Below, piece by piece: positions 34,109-54,307 of a stretch of DNA of 64,000 bases. The notes beneath the pieces were generated by a model. That model had not been told where the DNA came from, did not search any database, and saw only the letters and a list, made by a program, of their open reading frames with translations. Source of the stretch: Bacteroidales bacterium (GTDB lineage Bacteria; Bacteroidota; Bacteroidia; Bacteroidales; UBA932); the NCBI GenBank assembly GCA_017626555.1, contig JAGAIM010000001.1, positions 55,004-119,003 on the forward strand. The letters are read 5' to 3'. The number at the start of each line of letters is the position of its first letter. Position 1 is the first letter of the stretch. The translations under genes and the position numbers were made by a program.

Positions 34109-35152
34109 ATGATGAAAAAATATATATTGATGCTTTTCTCGTCGGTCTGCGTATCCTGTATGTCGGTCTTTGATCTGAAACTGGATGATGAGCCTGTTAT
34201 CTGTCTCGAGTCTTTCCCTGGAGTCGAGGACGTGGTGGTGTTTTCGCTCAGGCCTGCCTATTCGATGTCCAATAGTCCGACAAAGCCGGAATTCAGGCCG
34301 GAAATCGTCTTTACCGTCAACGGGGAGACCGTGCCGGTGGTTCAGAATACTGATTTCTGTGTCCGTGGAGAATATCCTGAAGATTGTTATATCGCTGATT
34401 ACAAGCCCGTTCCTGGTGACAGAATGAGCATACGGGTCTCATCAGAAGGTTTCAGACCGATAAGTGCCCGGACAAGTATTCCTGAGCCGTTCCCCGACAG
34501 GAAGATAGATTACAGGTCGGAAGTGGTGGGTGAAAGAGAGTATTGCATTCTTTATGTGACCTTTGAAGATGATGCAGACACGGACTTTACGTACGGGATG
34601 CAGGTGCATAATGAACTGCTGACACACTTTTCTGAAGGTAAGAAAGAAATCACTTACGTCCGGTATGCCGGCGAGCAGATTGCTGATGATTACAACATCG
34701 CTCCTATGTCTCTTGACGGTATCAGACTATGTTTTGACGGGTGGAGAATGTCAGATTATGCAAATGTAGCCTGCTGGAGCGACGATAATTTCAATGGCAG
34801 GCAAAAGACCATCTCGATGACGGTAAGGGCATATCAGTATGACGAGATTTCTGCTTATGATTCATTTTTCGTCCGTGAATATGAAAGAGAACTGTATGAT
34901 GAGGAGTACAATGTGGTCGGGAAATGCAATGTGCAGGAAAGAAACAAACTAATCCTTTATACGATGACCGATGAATTCTACAAATACTCGTTGGCCAAGG
35001 AAAGTGCCAGAGAAAATGCCGGTTTCTTCGCAGGTATTGCACCTTCCAATTTCTGCTATTCCAACGTCGAAGGCGGATACGGAGTCTTTGCCGGAGTATA
35101 TTGTGAGCATACGGATTGGATCACCCCGGAATTCATTGAAAACAACAGATGA
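34109..35152 (+). CDS. DUF4249 lipoprotein, cassette 2
   Basis: The 347-residue lipoprotein (LFSSVCVSC, Cys17) shares the DUF4249 form of its counterpart at 30097: SLRPAYSMSNSPTKPEF near the start, a central beta domain, and a C-terminus with YSNVEGGYGVFAGVYCEHTD. It starts 3 nt after receptor 2, matching the gene order of cassette 1. An ATG at 34112 is an equally good start. Confidence 0.85.
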   Translation: MMKKYILMLFSSVCVSCMSVFDLKLDDEPVICLESFPGVEDVVVFSLRPAYSMSNSPTKPEFRPEIVFTVNGETVPVVQNTDFCVRGEYPEDCYIADYKPVPGDRMSIRVSSEGFRPISARTSIPEPFPDRKIDYRSEVVGEREYCILYVTFEDDADTDFTYGMQVHNELLTHFSEGKKEITYVRYAGEQIADDYNIAPMSLDGIRLCFDGWRMSDYANVACWSDDNFNGRQKTISMTVRAYQYDEISAYDSFFVREYERELYDEEYNVVGKCNVQERNKLILYTMTDEFYKYSLAKESARENAGFFAGIAPSNFCYSNVEGGYGVFAGVYCEHTDWITPEFIENNR

Positions 35153-36054
35153 ATATGAAAAGAACGCTTTTTGTCGTGTTTGCGGCACTTTACATATTGA
35201 GCGGATGTGAGTATCATCCCTATTACGACGGTCAGAAATTTCGCCTTTACAGCAGCGAATACGGCCTTTTCGAGACTGATGGTGCGCATATATATGTGCC
35301 TCTGTACAGTGAAGAAGCCTACGTTTTCGAGTGTTATGGAGGAAAGGGTCAGCATCATACCGTAGAAATTGCGGATCCGGATATTCTTGGATATTCATAT
35401 ATTGAGAGTGCCGTGGATCAGCGACCTTTCGAGAGTCCGGGCATAGTTCCGGCCGGTATTTCGCTTCAACCTCAGAAATATGGTGACACGTCAATGACGA
35501 TTGCCGATGAGGATACAGGAGAATCTATTATGATCAATGTACATATCTGCGAGGCAGCCAAAGCAATACAGGTCTATGAAGGGTGCAACACGTTCGAGAC
35601 CAATACCGTCCTGTCATTCAGGTATGCTGCCCAGGATGATATAGTGCATTTCTGCCGCGGGAACGTCAGCAGAAGGGAACTGGAGTATATTGCAGAGGGG
35701 AAATATGAATTTGTGGATATAGATGGCCTTCTTCATCTGCAACTGACCTATCCGGCCGACGAGGAAGGTAAATTGTCTGCATCAGGGAAGGACACCGTGA
35801 AACTATATCAGATCCAATATAGAGATGGCTATTCCTATGCCCCGGAGTCTATGATGATTATGCTCAATATGCAGGCCTATCCTATTCAGACGCGCTCAGC
35901 GTATAATATAGTCGAGCCTGGAAATTATCATACGAGATTCCGGTTCGTCGATGTCACGGATATCGATCCTTCTACCCTGGATCAAATAGACGGGGATATG
36001 GAGATTTTCTATGCCTACAGTGCCGAAATGATACCCTGGATTCTTGAACAATAA
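35149..36054 (+). CDS. Hypothetical lipoprotein, cassette 2
   Basis: The 301-residue product has a lipoprotein signal (VFAALYILSGC, Cys20) and a beta-rich body with no recognised domain. It overlaps the DUF4249 stop by 4 nt (ATGA) and takes the same third position as the lipoprotein at 31127, though the two do not look alike. Its stop codon overlaps the left arm of the structured repeat at 36053. It ends the operon that starts at 25995. Confidence 0.75.
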   Translation: MNMKRTLFVVFAALYILSGCEYHPYYDGQKFRLYSSEYGLFETDGAHIYVPLYSEEAYVFECYGGKGQHHTVEIADPDILGYSYIESAVDQRPFESPGIVPAGISLQPQKYGDTSMTIADEDTGESIMINVHICEAAKAIQVYEGCNTFETNTVLSFRYAAQDDIVHFCRGNVSRRELEYIAEGKYEFVDIDGLLHLQLTYPADEEGKLSASGKDTVKLYQIQYRDGYSYAPESMMIMLNMQAYPIQTRSAYNIVEPGNYHTRFRFVDVTDIDPSTLDQIDGDMEIFYAYSAEMIPWILEQ

Positions 36055-36153
36055 AAGATCCAAGGCTGTACAGTAAGGCGGCATTGGCTCCCGAAAAGGG
36101 AGGGCACCCACGATAGTGGGGAGGACCGCCGGCTGTACAGCCTTGGATCTTTT
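36053..36153. repeat. Structured multi-hairpin repeat, copy A (bidirectional terminator)
   Basis: Perfect 21-nt arms (36053-36073 and 36133-36153) start with AAAAGATCC and end with GGATCTTTT. Inside is a GGCGG/CCGCC stem and two hairpins: CTCCC-GAAAA-GGGAG and CCCAC-GATA-GTGGG. The stretch 36075-36146 is identical to 54229-54300. It separates convergent genes and ends in T on either strand, so it can terminate in both directions. Confidence 0.9.
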
Positions 36154-52175: not shown

Positions 52176-52580
52176 ATGAAATTGAAAATCTGCCTGCTTG
52201 CAGTTTTTACCGCTCTTTTCGTAGTGATCCCTGCTTCCGCTCAGCAGAAGCAGGAACAGCCTGATATTTTCGAACAGGCTGAGATGGAGGCGGACAGACT
52301 TCAGAGAATCCTCGATCTGGAGGACTGGCAGGCGTTTTATGTGGATTCCACCCTCAAGCACGATTTCCCTGCAATGATGGCCGATTATGAGGAACTCAGG
52401 AATTCGAAGGTGTCCAACACATCTATGTATATAGCAGTGCAGGACAAGTGGATGGAGCAGATAGATGCCACCTATAAGAAGATATTCACTGAAGAACAGT
52501 GGGCTGCTTACCTGAAGCAGGGTGCAGGAAAGGCTCAGAAGGCTCGTGCAAAGCGCAGAGCCAAGGCTGAGGGAAAATAA
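52176..52580 (+). CDS. Small helical periplasmic protein
   Basis: The 134-residue product has a signal peptide (LAVFTALFVVIPASAQ), then an all-helical body (IFEQAEMEADRLQRILDLED, MEQIDATYKKIFTEEQWAAY) and a very basic C-terminus (KAQKARAKRRAKAEGK). Length and helical character recall Spy/CpxP-like periplasmic proteins, but I see no LTxxQ motif and do not claim that identity. Start is the ATG at 52176, which gives the signal peptide. Confidence 0.75.
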   Translation: MKLKICLLAVFTALFVVIPASAQQKQEQPDIFEQAEMEADRLQRILDLEDWQAFYVDSTLKHDFPAMMADYEELRNSKVSNTSMYIAVQDKWMEQIDATYKKIFTEEQWAAYLKQGAGKAQKARAKRRAKAEGK

Positions 52581-52581
52581 T

Positions 52582-52608
52582 TGTCATCCTGAGCGAAGCG
52601 AAGGATCT
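52582..52608 (+). repeat. Dispersed GTCATCCTGAGCG repeat
   Basis: TGTCATCCTGAGCGAAGCGA then AGGATCT directly follows the stop codon at 52580. It can form a short hairpin (ATCCT with AGGAT) and is the same family as the copies at 42557 and 47385. Confidence 0.75.
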
Positions 52609-52620
52609 AAATCAGATATA

Positions 52621-53100
52621 ATGGATTTTTTAGAAGTTATAGAGAAAAGGCATAGTGTCAGGAAGTATGCTGACAGGCCTGTAGAAAAGGAAGTACTGGA
52701 TGCCATAGTGAGAGTGGCTCAGACTGCTCCTTCGTCGAGGAACAGCAAGAGTTCGGCTTTTATGATTGTGGAAGACAGGGATACTCTTGATGCTCTGGCA
52801 CAGATGAGGGACTATGGTTCTGCGCTTCTGAATGGTGCCCAGGCGGCGATAGTGGTGCTCGGAGATGAGACCAAGACCGATCTTTGGGTGGATAATTGCG
52901 CGATTTCCGCTACATTTGTGCAATTGGCTGTGACTGCTATGGATCTGGTGAGTTGTTGGGTGCATTGCAACGGCCGCCCGCGTCTGAAGGCTGAACCTGA
53001 TGGTGCCAAGGCTGAGGACTATGTACGCGAACTTCTCGGCATCAAAGAGGGTTTGTGTCCTTATTGTGTCATTGCCATCGGATATCCGGTAGAGGAATAG
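52621..53100 (+). CDS. Nitroreductase family protein
   Basis: The 159-residue FMN-binding nitroreductase fold is short for the family. It has IEKRHSVRKYADRPVEKEVL near the start (the RxSxRxY flavin site), QTAPSSRNSKSSAFMIV in the middle, and CAISATFVQLAVTAMDL, GLCPYCVIAIGYP at the end. NAD(P)H-dependent reduction is the family activity; the physiological substrate is unknown. It starts 12 nt after the repeat at 52582, which lies between it and the small periplasmic gene. Confidence 0.88.
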   Translation: MDFLEVIEKRHSVRKYADRPVEKEVLDAIVRVAQTAPSSRNSKSSAFMIVEDRDTLDALAQMRDYGSALLNGAQAAIVVLGDETKTDLWVDNCAISATFVQLAVTAMDLVSCWVHCNGRPRLKAEPDGAKAEDYVRELLGIKEGLCPYCVIAIGYPVEE

Positions 53101-53179: not shown

Positions 53180-54205
53180 ATGAGAGAAAAAATTGAGGCC
53201 TTGATGGCCGAAATTGCGACTTTGTCCTGCAAGAGCGAGCAGGAGATCGAGCAGGCGCGTGTGCGTCTCCTTGGAAAGAAAGGAGAAATTACTGCCCTTT
53301 TTGATGAATTCAGGACAGTGGCACCTGAACTCAAGAGAGAATTCGGACAGAAACTGAACGTACTTAAGAATACAGCGGCAGCCAAGATAGAGGAACTTAA
53401 GGAGGCGGCAGCAGAAGCACCAGAAGCAGGGGCGGCTTCATTTGACTATACAATGCCTGGAGACCCTGTACAATTGGGTTCTCGTCATCCGGTGTCTATT
53501 GCGCGTGAGGAGATTGTGAGCATCTTCCGCAAATTCGGCTACGATGTGGCCGAAGGCCCTGAAGTTGAGGATGACTGGCACGTATTCGAAGCCTTGAACT
53601 TCCCTCCGGAGCACCCGGCACGCGAGATGCAGGATACATTCTTCATCAGTGACAGTGACAATCCGGTTCTTCTCCGCACCCACACTTCTTCTGTGCAGGT
53701 ACGTGCGATGGAGAAGATGCCTCTCCCGATACGTATCGTATGTCCGGGTCGTGTGTTCAGAAATGAAGCGATTTCTGCTCGTGCACATTGCATTTTCCAT
53801 CAGGTTGAGGGACTGTATATCGATGAGAATGTGACATTTGCGGATATGAAGCAGGCTATCCTCCTCTTTGCACGCGAAATGTTCGGTGCTCAGAGCCAGA
53901 TCCGTATGCGCCCTTCATATTTTCCGTTCACAGAGCCTTCTGCCGAGATCGATGTGAGTTGTAATATCTGCGGCGGAAAGGGATGCAATGTCTGCAAGGG
54001 AACAGGCTGGCTCGAGATTATGGGTTGCGGAATGGTGGATCCGAATGTTCTTGAGGCATCCGGCATCGACAGCAAGAAATACAGCGGTTTCGCATTCGGA
54101 ATGGGTGTGGAGCGTATCGCGATGCTTAAATGGCAGGTCCGTGACCTTCGCAACTACTTCGAAAACGACCTCCGTTTCCTGAAAGAGTTCGAGACATCAC
54201 TCTAG
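53180..54205 (+). CDS. pheS: Phenylalanine-tRNA ligase alpha subunit
   Basis: The 341-residue protein has the N-terminal coiled coil (ARVRLLGKKGEITALFDEFR) and the class II catalytic core: HPVSIAREEIVSIFRKFGY, FQAL-type EALNFPPEHPARE, LLRTHTSSVQVRAME, VFRNEAISARAHCIFHQVEG and FGMGVERIAMLKW. A CNICGGKGCNVCKGTGW zinc-ribbon-like insert, present in many PheS proteins, is seen near residue 260. It charges tRNA-Phe in the cytoplasm with PheT, which is not adjacent here. A structured repeat starts directly after its stop. Confidence 0.97.
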   Translation: MREKIEALMAEIATLSCKSEQEIEQARVRLLGKKGEITALFDEFRTVAPELKREFGQKLNVLKNTAAAKIEELKEAAAEAPEAGAASFDYTMPGDPVQLGSRHPVSIAREEIVSIFRKFGYDVAEGPEVEDDWHVFEALNFPPEHPAREMQDTFFISDSDNPVLLRTHTSSVQVRAMEKMPLPIRIVCPGRVFRNEAISARAHCIFHQVEGLYIDENVTFADMKQAILLFAREMFGAQSQIRMRPSYFPFTEPSAEIDVSCNICGGKGCNVCKGTGWLEIMGCGMVDPNVLEASGIDSKKYSGFAFGMGVERIAMLKWQVRDLRNYFENDLRFLKEFETSL

Positions 54206-54206
54206 A

Positions 54207-54307
54207 AAAAACTCCAAGGCTGTACTGCAAGGCGGCATTGGCTCCCGAAAAGGGAGGGCACCCACGATAGTGGGGAGGACCGCCGGCTGTACAGCCTTGG
54301 AGTTTTT
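54207..54307. repeat. Structured multi-hairpin repeat, copy B (bidirectional terminator)
   Basis: Outer arms (54207-54225 and 54289-54307) pair over 19 nt. The part 54229-54300 is identical to 36075-36146; the only internal difference is TGC for AGT at 54226-54228, which makes one mismatched pair. The same two inner hairpins are present. It lies between convergent pheS and yqeY. Confidence 0.9.

Follow-up and report, generated by a model that had tools for sequence, protein, structure and literature searches.

Two structured sites in the 64,000-nt stretch of Bacteroidales DNA analysed here (the window) belong to a dispersed family whose copies share a conserved core of ~44 nt, folded as a three-way junction. 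In our judgement, with a probability of about 0.6, the family is a mobile palindromic element resembling the Rickettsia palindromic elements (RPEs), with mobility machinery that recognises the fold and with outer arms that are rewritten from the host flank by template switching.

Both window copies lie where the first-pass annotation had placed them (Table 1), and they are identical at 95 of 101 positions. The uninterrupted identical run, given earlier as 72 nt, is present but measures 73 nt (36075-36147). RNA folding of the + strand reproduced every part that had been described, namely the long outer stem (22 bp in copy 1; 21 bp and one mismatch in copy 2), the GGCGG/CCGCC stem (P1), separated from the outer stem by an AA/G loop, and two inner hairpins, which read CTCCC-GAAAA-GGGAG (P2) and CCCAC-GATA-GTGGG (P3) in both copies. 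The fold energies were -65.2 kcal/mol (z -10.8) for copy 1 and -61.9 kcal/mol (z -8.5) for copy 2, and none of 200 shuffles was equally stable; the minus strand of both copies also folds, far more stably than shuffles. As the annotation had said, the outermost bases are unlike between the copies and yet paired. No third copy was found in the 64-kb window with two covariance models.

The open reading frames bear out that convergent genes flank both copies; in copy 1 the opening A's are also part of the TAA stop codon of its left gene. By eye, the T-runs reported earlier are there: on both strands of both copies the stem is followed by a T-run at the gene end. From these features, the window copies look able to work as bidirectional terminators; the terminator scanner, which accepts loops of 3-8 nt only and cannot judge such a structure, made no call at either copy. 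The right neighbour of copy 2 is presumably YqeY-like. Elsewhere in the window, the start region of an ORF at 52522-53100 reads CHPERSEGS, which we take to resemble a common dispersed repeat peptide, and the true start of that gene probably lies further in.

Table 1. Window copies of the element, their parts and their neighbouring genes.
Feature	Position	Strand	Basis
Copy 1, core on +	36053..36153	+	model R1, 77 bits; fold
Copy 1 outer-stem left arm, 22 nt, start overlaps stop codon of left gene	36053..36074	+	fold
Copy 1 P1 left, GGCGG, partner 36126-36130	36077..36081	+	fold, covariation
Copy 1 conserved core	36082..36125	+	fold, alignment
Copy 1 core, junction CATTGG	start of 36082..36125, before P2	+	fold
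Copy 1 core, P2, loop GAAAA at 36093-36097	36088-36102	+	fold
Copy 1 core, linker between P2 and P3	36103-36106	+	fold
Copy 1 core, P3, loop GATA at 36112-36115	36107-36120	+	fold
Copy 1 core, linker GAGGA	36121-36125	+	fold
Copy 1 P1 right, CCGCC	36126..36130	+	fold
Copy 1 outer-stem right arm, end TCTTTT	36132..36153	+	fold
Copy 2, orientation as copy 1	54207..54307	+	model R1, 76.2 bits; fold
Copy 2 outer-stem left arm, one mismatch	54207..54228	+	fold
Copy 2 conserved core	54236..54279	+	fold
Copy 2 outer-stem right arm, end TTTTT	54286..54307	+	fold
Copy 1 left neighbour, 301 aa, no Pfam family at 1e-5	35149..36054	+	ORF, profile search
Copy 1 right neighbour, convergent ORF, 562 aa	36170..37858	-	ORF
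Copy 2 left neighbour, pheS (tRNA-synt_2d)	53180..54205	+	ORF, profile search
Copy 2 right neighbour, convergent ORF, 149 aa	54319..54768	-	ORF

The fetched loci together yielded 199 copies with different 100-nt contexts. The count takes copies that agree over all 100 nt as one and still includes near-duplicates, and some genomes are present twice. The genome from which the window comes carries four near-identical copies, which occupy four different gene pairs, and a fifth with unrelated but paired outer arms. A DNA search gave matches in 11 of 61 genomes, all of one genus. An exact 26-base core pattern occurred in at least 118 genome-contig stretches; all titles among the matches listed were Bacteroidota, and nearly all of these matches were labelled 'Bacteroidales bacterium' or Candidatus Cryptobacteroides, Cacconaster or Coprenecus. 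Viral contigs gave no match to this strict exact pattern, and the idea of a phage-borne repeat was dropped on that ground.

A covariance model built from 91 copies (R1) matched 44 of 101 genomes of the genus, the window's own included, with 0 to 26 matches per genome and the weakest at only E 9e-4. Across the order, R1 matched 7 of 247 sampled genomes, again including our own. Four of these seven matches were weak (22-25 bits; L183-L186) and were treated as chance, paired arms being absent by eye; the other three came from the window's own genome, from a congener (27 bits) and from a genome in a different genus of the same family. The exact pattern and R1 favour one subfamily. A wider model (R2) was run against the window, its genome and 25 loci; in the own genome it found 10 copies at E <=1.8e-4, four of them in argC, hutI, aroE and metH. 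Two R2 matches in genome G000 at E 0.04-0.05 were left uncounted: one (L387) looks like chance coding sequence, and the other (L388) is palindromic but uncertain. Genome G100 (L194-L205) holds 26 matches of a diverged core subfamily, many of them embedded in a larger repeated block whose flanks are conserved, and often close to the end of a contig, which looks like a recent expansion.

Rfam gave no match at E up to 1 on five loci and none at gathering on nine sources, and a known RNA family was rejected for this reason. No description of the element was found in the openly licensed part of the literature, which is the part that was searched. The annotation had named, as grounds for doubt, a solitary pair of copies with no covariation, or a known Rfam terminator family; there are many copies beyond the two, covariation is present and no known Rfam family matches.

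Its word 'structured' is supported by covariation both within and across subfamilies. Among the 91 copies, 98.4% of 1274 cells were paired and 7 of 14 pairs showed double changes, compared with 32.5-57.1% paired when the partner was slid by 1-3 columns. P1 and P3 covary in this set and P2 is invariant, most of the 91 having come from a pattern that fixes P2. Across subfamilies, in a hand-chosen set of 31 sequences, 88.8% of cells were paired (slid controls 41.2-55.3%), double changes occurred at 10 of 14 pairs, and P2 covaries. In the main subfamilies the P2 loop follows G-N-R-N-A; exceptions are the L178/L211/L230 and L179/L231 groups, L176 and the hutI/aroE type. The P3 loops were mostly short: 91 of 154 distinct cases were triloops (63 of them GNA) and 46 were tetraloops (20 GNNA, 12 CTTG), and four copies had no detected P3. 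In DNA hairpins, loops of the GNA and GNNA types are highly stable, so the type of P3 loop cannot separate DNA from RNA. By eye, the junction shows linked changes, from G,A,G to A,G,A at columns 29, 33 and 52 of A3 and from TTGG..GGA to TTGA..GGG at columns 14 and 56, which suggests non-canonical contacts within the core fold.

The outer arms scored at least 12 against their own partner in 153 of 191 copies, compared with 8 of 1000 mismatched pairings; this test took 191 of the 199 copies, the rest being dropped for an edge or an N. Stems are unlike between loci, and between species at one locus, yet each pairs with its own partner. At orthologous intergenic loci (L146 and L149 not among them), own-partner scores were 15-28 for 31 copies and 28 of 50 cross scores were <=9. 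The higher cross scores belonged to loci that keep or partly share a stem and to flipped pairs, whose scores are inflated since the same genomic flank is compared. Within an unchanged stem, the core was inverted between the orthologues L097/L119 and L018/L157; with other stems, it was inverted in aroE of G026 and hutI of G090.

At the efp locus, the close relatives L233, L236, L239 and L243 carry core-less hairpin terminators with unrelated stems. The long stems at L233, L236, L237, L239 and L243 are unrelated between species at 93-98% EF-P identity. Since core-less stems at efp are unrelated between species, stem turnover is not limited to copies with the core. In the loci examined, no core-less hairpin shared its stem with a core copy, and the only six matches were element copies.

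With a hexamer-based gene caller, 101 of 186 copies lay between convergent genes, with medians of 46 and 38 nt between copy and flanking gene. Between tandem genes, 18 copies were same-sense and 22 antisense; 7 were divergent, 14 lay inside an ORF and 24 had no called gene on one side. The count left out 13 of the 199 copies, in loci under 2500 nt. Comparison gaps of 80-400 nt in the same loci were convergent in 102 of 266 cases, and since these include element-bearing gaps, the convergent preference is understated if anything.

In-frame copies were found inside argC, aroE, hutI, metH, miaA and truB, and in-gene copies occur on either strand of unrelated genes. Profile searches named argC, truB, hutI, aroE (Pfam above cut-off, NCBIfam below) and miaA (Pfam above, NCBIfam just under), as well as a homocysteine S-methyltransferase and BacA/uppP. 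All 89 measured sites (29 of 30 argC loci, 23 of 30 for miaA, 8 of 30 for aroE and 29 of 30 for hutI) were multiples of 3 long; a first look had covered 15 argC, 23 miaA (plus L126), 15 aroE (10 unplaced) and 17 hutI loci. The 61 short sites (12-48 nt) gave inverted-arm scores of 4-9, and the 16 core-bearing sites gave 7-27, at least 10 in 15 of them. R2, to which 13 of the 16 sites called filled were given, recognised the core at 7; among the others, six were accepted through a shared 24-mer or by eye and two, in miaA, through R1.

The argC site measured 21-24 nt at 20 of the 29 placed loci and 57-69 nt, with no recognisable core, at four; five were filled, at 114-171 nt in G021, G000, G090 and G080 and at 126 nt in the distant G118, whose core is of another type and whose arms score 25. 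In G000 the argC frame stays open through the insert, for 380 aa. Among 23 miaA loci, 17 had 12-39 nt, three had 81 nt and one had 156 nt with no core, and G023 and G071 had 120 nt with the same core in opposite orientations. Two tandem element copies stand in one open frame in the miaA of L126 (777-928). For hutI, 21 of 29 placed loci had 33-48 nt; the element is present, at 114-156 nt, in G000, G026, G080 and G090; palindromes with no such core occupy the site in G024 (165 nt) and G072 (108 nt), and two others had 81-84 nt. The hutI position also holds a palindrome of the CTGTCATT... type, alone in G024 (L420) and beside the core in G026 (L421); the core-less palindrome of G072 (L447) likewise sits at the element position, which looks like a hot spot for several palindrome kinds. 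In the hutI locus of G021, a core-like R2 match of 24.9 bits (L425:1192-1256) lies off the hutI site, which is empty there. The eight placed aroE sites were filled in G000, G007, G026, G032 and G090 and not in G021 and G083, and G080 had only a piece resembling the inner left arm. Filled and short sites of the four genes were compared for a target-site duplication, and arm rewriting hides the ends.

Around P2, a 24-nt stretch was identical in 8 of the 9 aroE and hutI copies, aroE of G090 being the exception, while arms and P3 change. Among in-gene orthologues of the four genes, the own-partner score exceeded the cross-species scores in 12 of 13 rows; in the remaining row (L353) it was 7 against one cross score of 8. 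Whole-arm own scores were 30, 16 and 26 in three of the five aroE species (cross-species <=13), 27, 21, 20 and 20 in hutI (<=10), 14, 7, 10 and 10 in argC (<=8), where the 7 belongs to the decayed arms of G000, and 10 and 9 in miaA (<=6).

In aroE the pairing reaches the host gene itself. The paired left arm of G000 is 30 nt long, and 14 of these nt belong to host codons that end in W-L-S-E-V; the host codons of G007 differ (W-L-C-E-V), and its far arm differs correspondingly. Host codons scored against far arms at 14 in G000, 14 in G007, 11 in G026, 9 in G032 and 7 in G090, the highest score in every row being that with the own species, and the background maximum over 1652 windows was 9. Given that maximum, the far arm clearly mirrors its own host codons in three of the five species (G000, G007 and G026); G032 is marginal and G090 not significant.

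The annotation had taken the paired changes in the outermost bases as a sign that selection maintains the stem. The pairs are real, but copies within coding sequence, where termination would do harm, have paired arms too, and in aroE these reach host codons, so that paired changes alone are no proof of selection. This bears on an alternative that we consider unlikely, namely a cis-acting structured RNA of the 3' untranslated region, a protein-binding or ligand-sensing three-way junction fused to a terminator, with its stem under selection. The covarying helices, the GNRNA-type P2 loop of the main subfamilies with the linked junction changes, the convergent setting close to gene ends and the T-runs at both ends of the window copies would all suit such an RNA. 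However, copies between tandem genes show no orientation preference (18 versus 22), which led us to reject a purely cis-acting RNA tied to gene orientation and argues against a sense-strand RNA regulator at the window sites; moreover, cores are inverted at orthologous loci, copies sit on either strand within unrelated coding genes, and an Rfam match is absent. The same indifference to orientation, with the preference for convergent gaps and the sequence-specific P2, would fit a DNA site, protein-bound or related to replication, that is kept between convergent genes to avoid transcription. We regard this as improbable, since in-gene copies exist, copy number is low and very uneven among genomes, and 57 of the 101 genus genomes had no match under stricter filters.

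Two further readings concern how the core reached its sites. A short core might insert into the loop of an ordinary bidirectional terminator, the arms being pre-existing stems. The efp relatives offer just such core-less terminators, with stems that turn over in the absence of the core; nevertheless, the loci examined gave no core-less hairpin with the stem of a core copy, and the low scores of the short in-gene sites (4-9) indicate that arms come with or after insertion, so we find this quite unlikely. The least probable reading of all, a very remote one, is that of a REP-type element mobilised by a Y1 (REP-associated) transposase. Y1 proteins are present in 78 of 101 genus genomes and, by eye, hairpin repeats adjoin several Y1 genes, but the best R1 match at 30 Y1 loci of the longer list reached 10.1 bits (E 0.47), and G100 with its 26 core-like matches has no Y1 match, nor have G013, G030 and G065. 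With no cores at those 30 loci and a core-rich genome lacking Y1, the partnership was disfavoured. The flanks of the Y1 genes in L321, L319 and L315 show another repeat by eye, a motif like TGATTATCAGCCACTTA and a hairpin of varying stem; this TGATTATCAGCCACTTA-type repeat by Y1 genes is a separate REP-like system that lacks the core.

Of the three possibilities offered by the annotation, a mobile element, a structured RNA or a protein-binding site, the mobile element is best supported, by the many copies, their patchy distribution, the same-arm copies and the in-frame copies in genes. On sequence grounds, spread is supported by the four same-arm copies of the own genome and the many near-identical copies of G100. 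Occupied orthologous sites may be old vertical insertions, so the case for recent movement rests mainly on those four copies. With one genome compared per species, no insertion polymorphism within a species was seen. Among the genomes compared, no transposase or other partner of the element was found, and Y1 transposases do not fit.

For the mobile palindrome with rewritten arms, we propose that the identity of the element lies in a conserved single-strand fold, the ~44-nt three-way junction with its fixed P2 and variable P3; the arms are specific to the locus. Putative machinery recognising the fold would spread it, possibly as single-stranded DNA. After insertion, template switching during replication at the palindrome may copy one arm onto the other, lengthen the pairing into the host flank and flip the core. 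At gene ends the outcome would be a bidirectional intrinsic terminator, and copies may be tolerated or useful there; within genes, only in-frame copies at tolerant positions would survive. Template switching between inverted-repeat arms is described as homogenising arms and inverting the spacer, also in coding genes, in the accessible part of one source (PMC8604942), and as creating or restoring hairpin stems in that of another (PMC8794818). Both signatures, arm homogenisation at orthologous sites and spacer inversion, are present here, and the process can yield arms that reach host codons and also explains the inverted cores. A core that was a neutral spacer should drift like the arms, yet the 24 nt are identical in 8 of 9 copies, so something further, selection or re-supply, maintains it; template switching does not account for this constancy of the P2 half. 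We infer that the mobility machinery may recognise the core, or that other copies may renew it. We entertain more tentatively, as a doubtful though possible variant, that only the folded core is mobile, that the arms form at the target as inverted copies of host sequence and that P2 is the recognised single-strand hairpin. If true, a transposable element would here build its ends in a new way, as host-templated, site-specific terminal repeats.

Among known systems, RPEs come closest. They are described as palindromes of 105-146 bp that occur in intergenic DNA and in frame within conserved protein genes, in the accessible part of that account (PMC2229807). The present element is alike in size (the window copies have 101 nt, and the distance between anchors is 96-105 nt at three aroE sites and 114-171 nt at four argC sites) and in its in-frame insertion, here in argC, miaA, hutI and aroE. 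According to the portion available of another paper, the arms of RPEs become less alike with age; the coding palindromes in Nematomorpha mitochondria that it describes offer a parallel to template switching at inverted repeats (PMC6649704). Here, in contrast, arms stay paired with their own partner and differ by locus, argC of G000 (score 7) excepted; what the family conserves is the three-way junction at its centre, and the arms do not belong to the family sequence; cores also occur in both orientations at one site, and the aroE arms mirror codons of the host. Compared by description, the element works like RPEs but fails the expectation of family-wide arms.

MITE families are defined by shared terminal inverted repeats. 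Our element shares with them a size of ~100 nt, paired ends and copies within ORFs, whereas its terminal repeats vary by locus and its centre is shared, although the four copies of the own genome share arms. Correia/NEMIS, ERIC and RUP are likewise portrayed, in the part of the source available, as non-autonomous elements of ~100-200 nt with paired ends, some of them fused to ORFs (PMC2229807). REP units, given as 20-40 bp with a GTAG or CGTC tag, include families with alternative complementary stem bases, according to the accessible text (PMC3733652); REP/REPIN elements are small intergenic palindromes too, but the present one showed no association with Y1 genes at the 30 loci searched. The window copies resemble intrinsic terminators in their GC-rich stem and T-runs at gene ends on both strands, and differ in a structured, conserved interior of ~44 nt in place of a short loop; copies of the family also lie within genes. 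Template switching, for its part, is a mutational process and not an element; in the present family it would operate at many sites, each time around the conserved dispersed core.

It is common to read paired stem changes as proof of a selected RNA structure; here the paired arms differ between sister species and those in aroE reach host codons. The aroE, hutI and argC sites let selection and template switching be told apart by strain sequencing, and the fixed P2 hairpin with its junction gives a handle for finding the mobility enzyme. As a group of small mobile elements in Bacteroidales, the family would be a new lineage. It would also show in what way core enzyme genes can house hairpins while their frame stays open, and by what route bidirectional terminators may originate and turn over.
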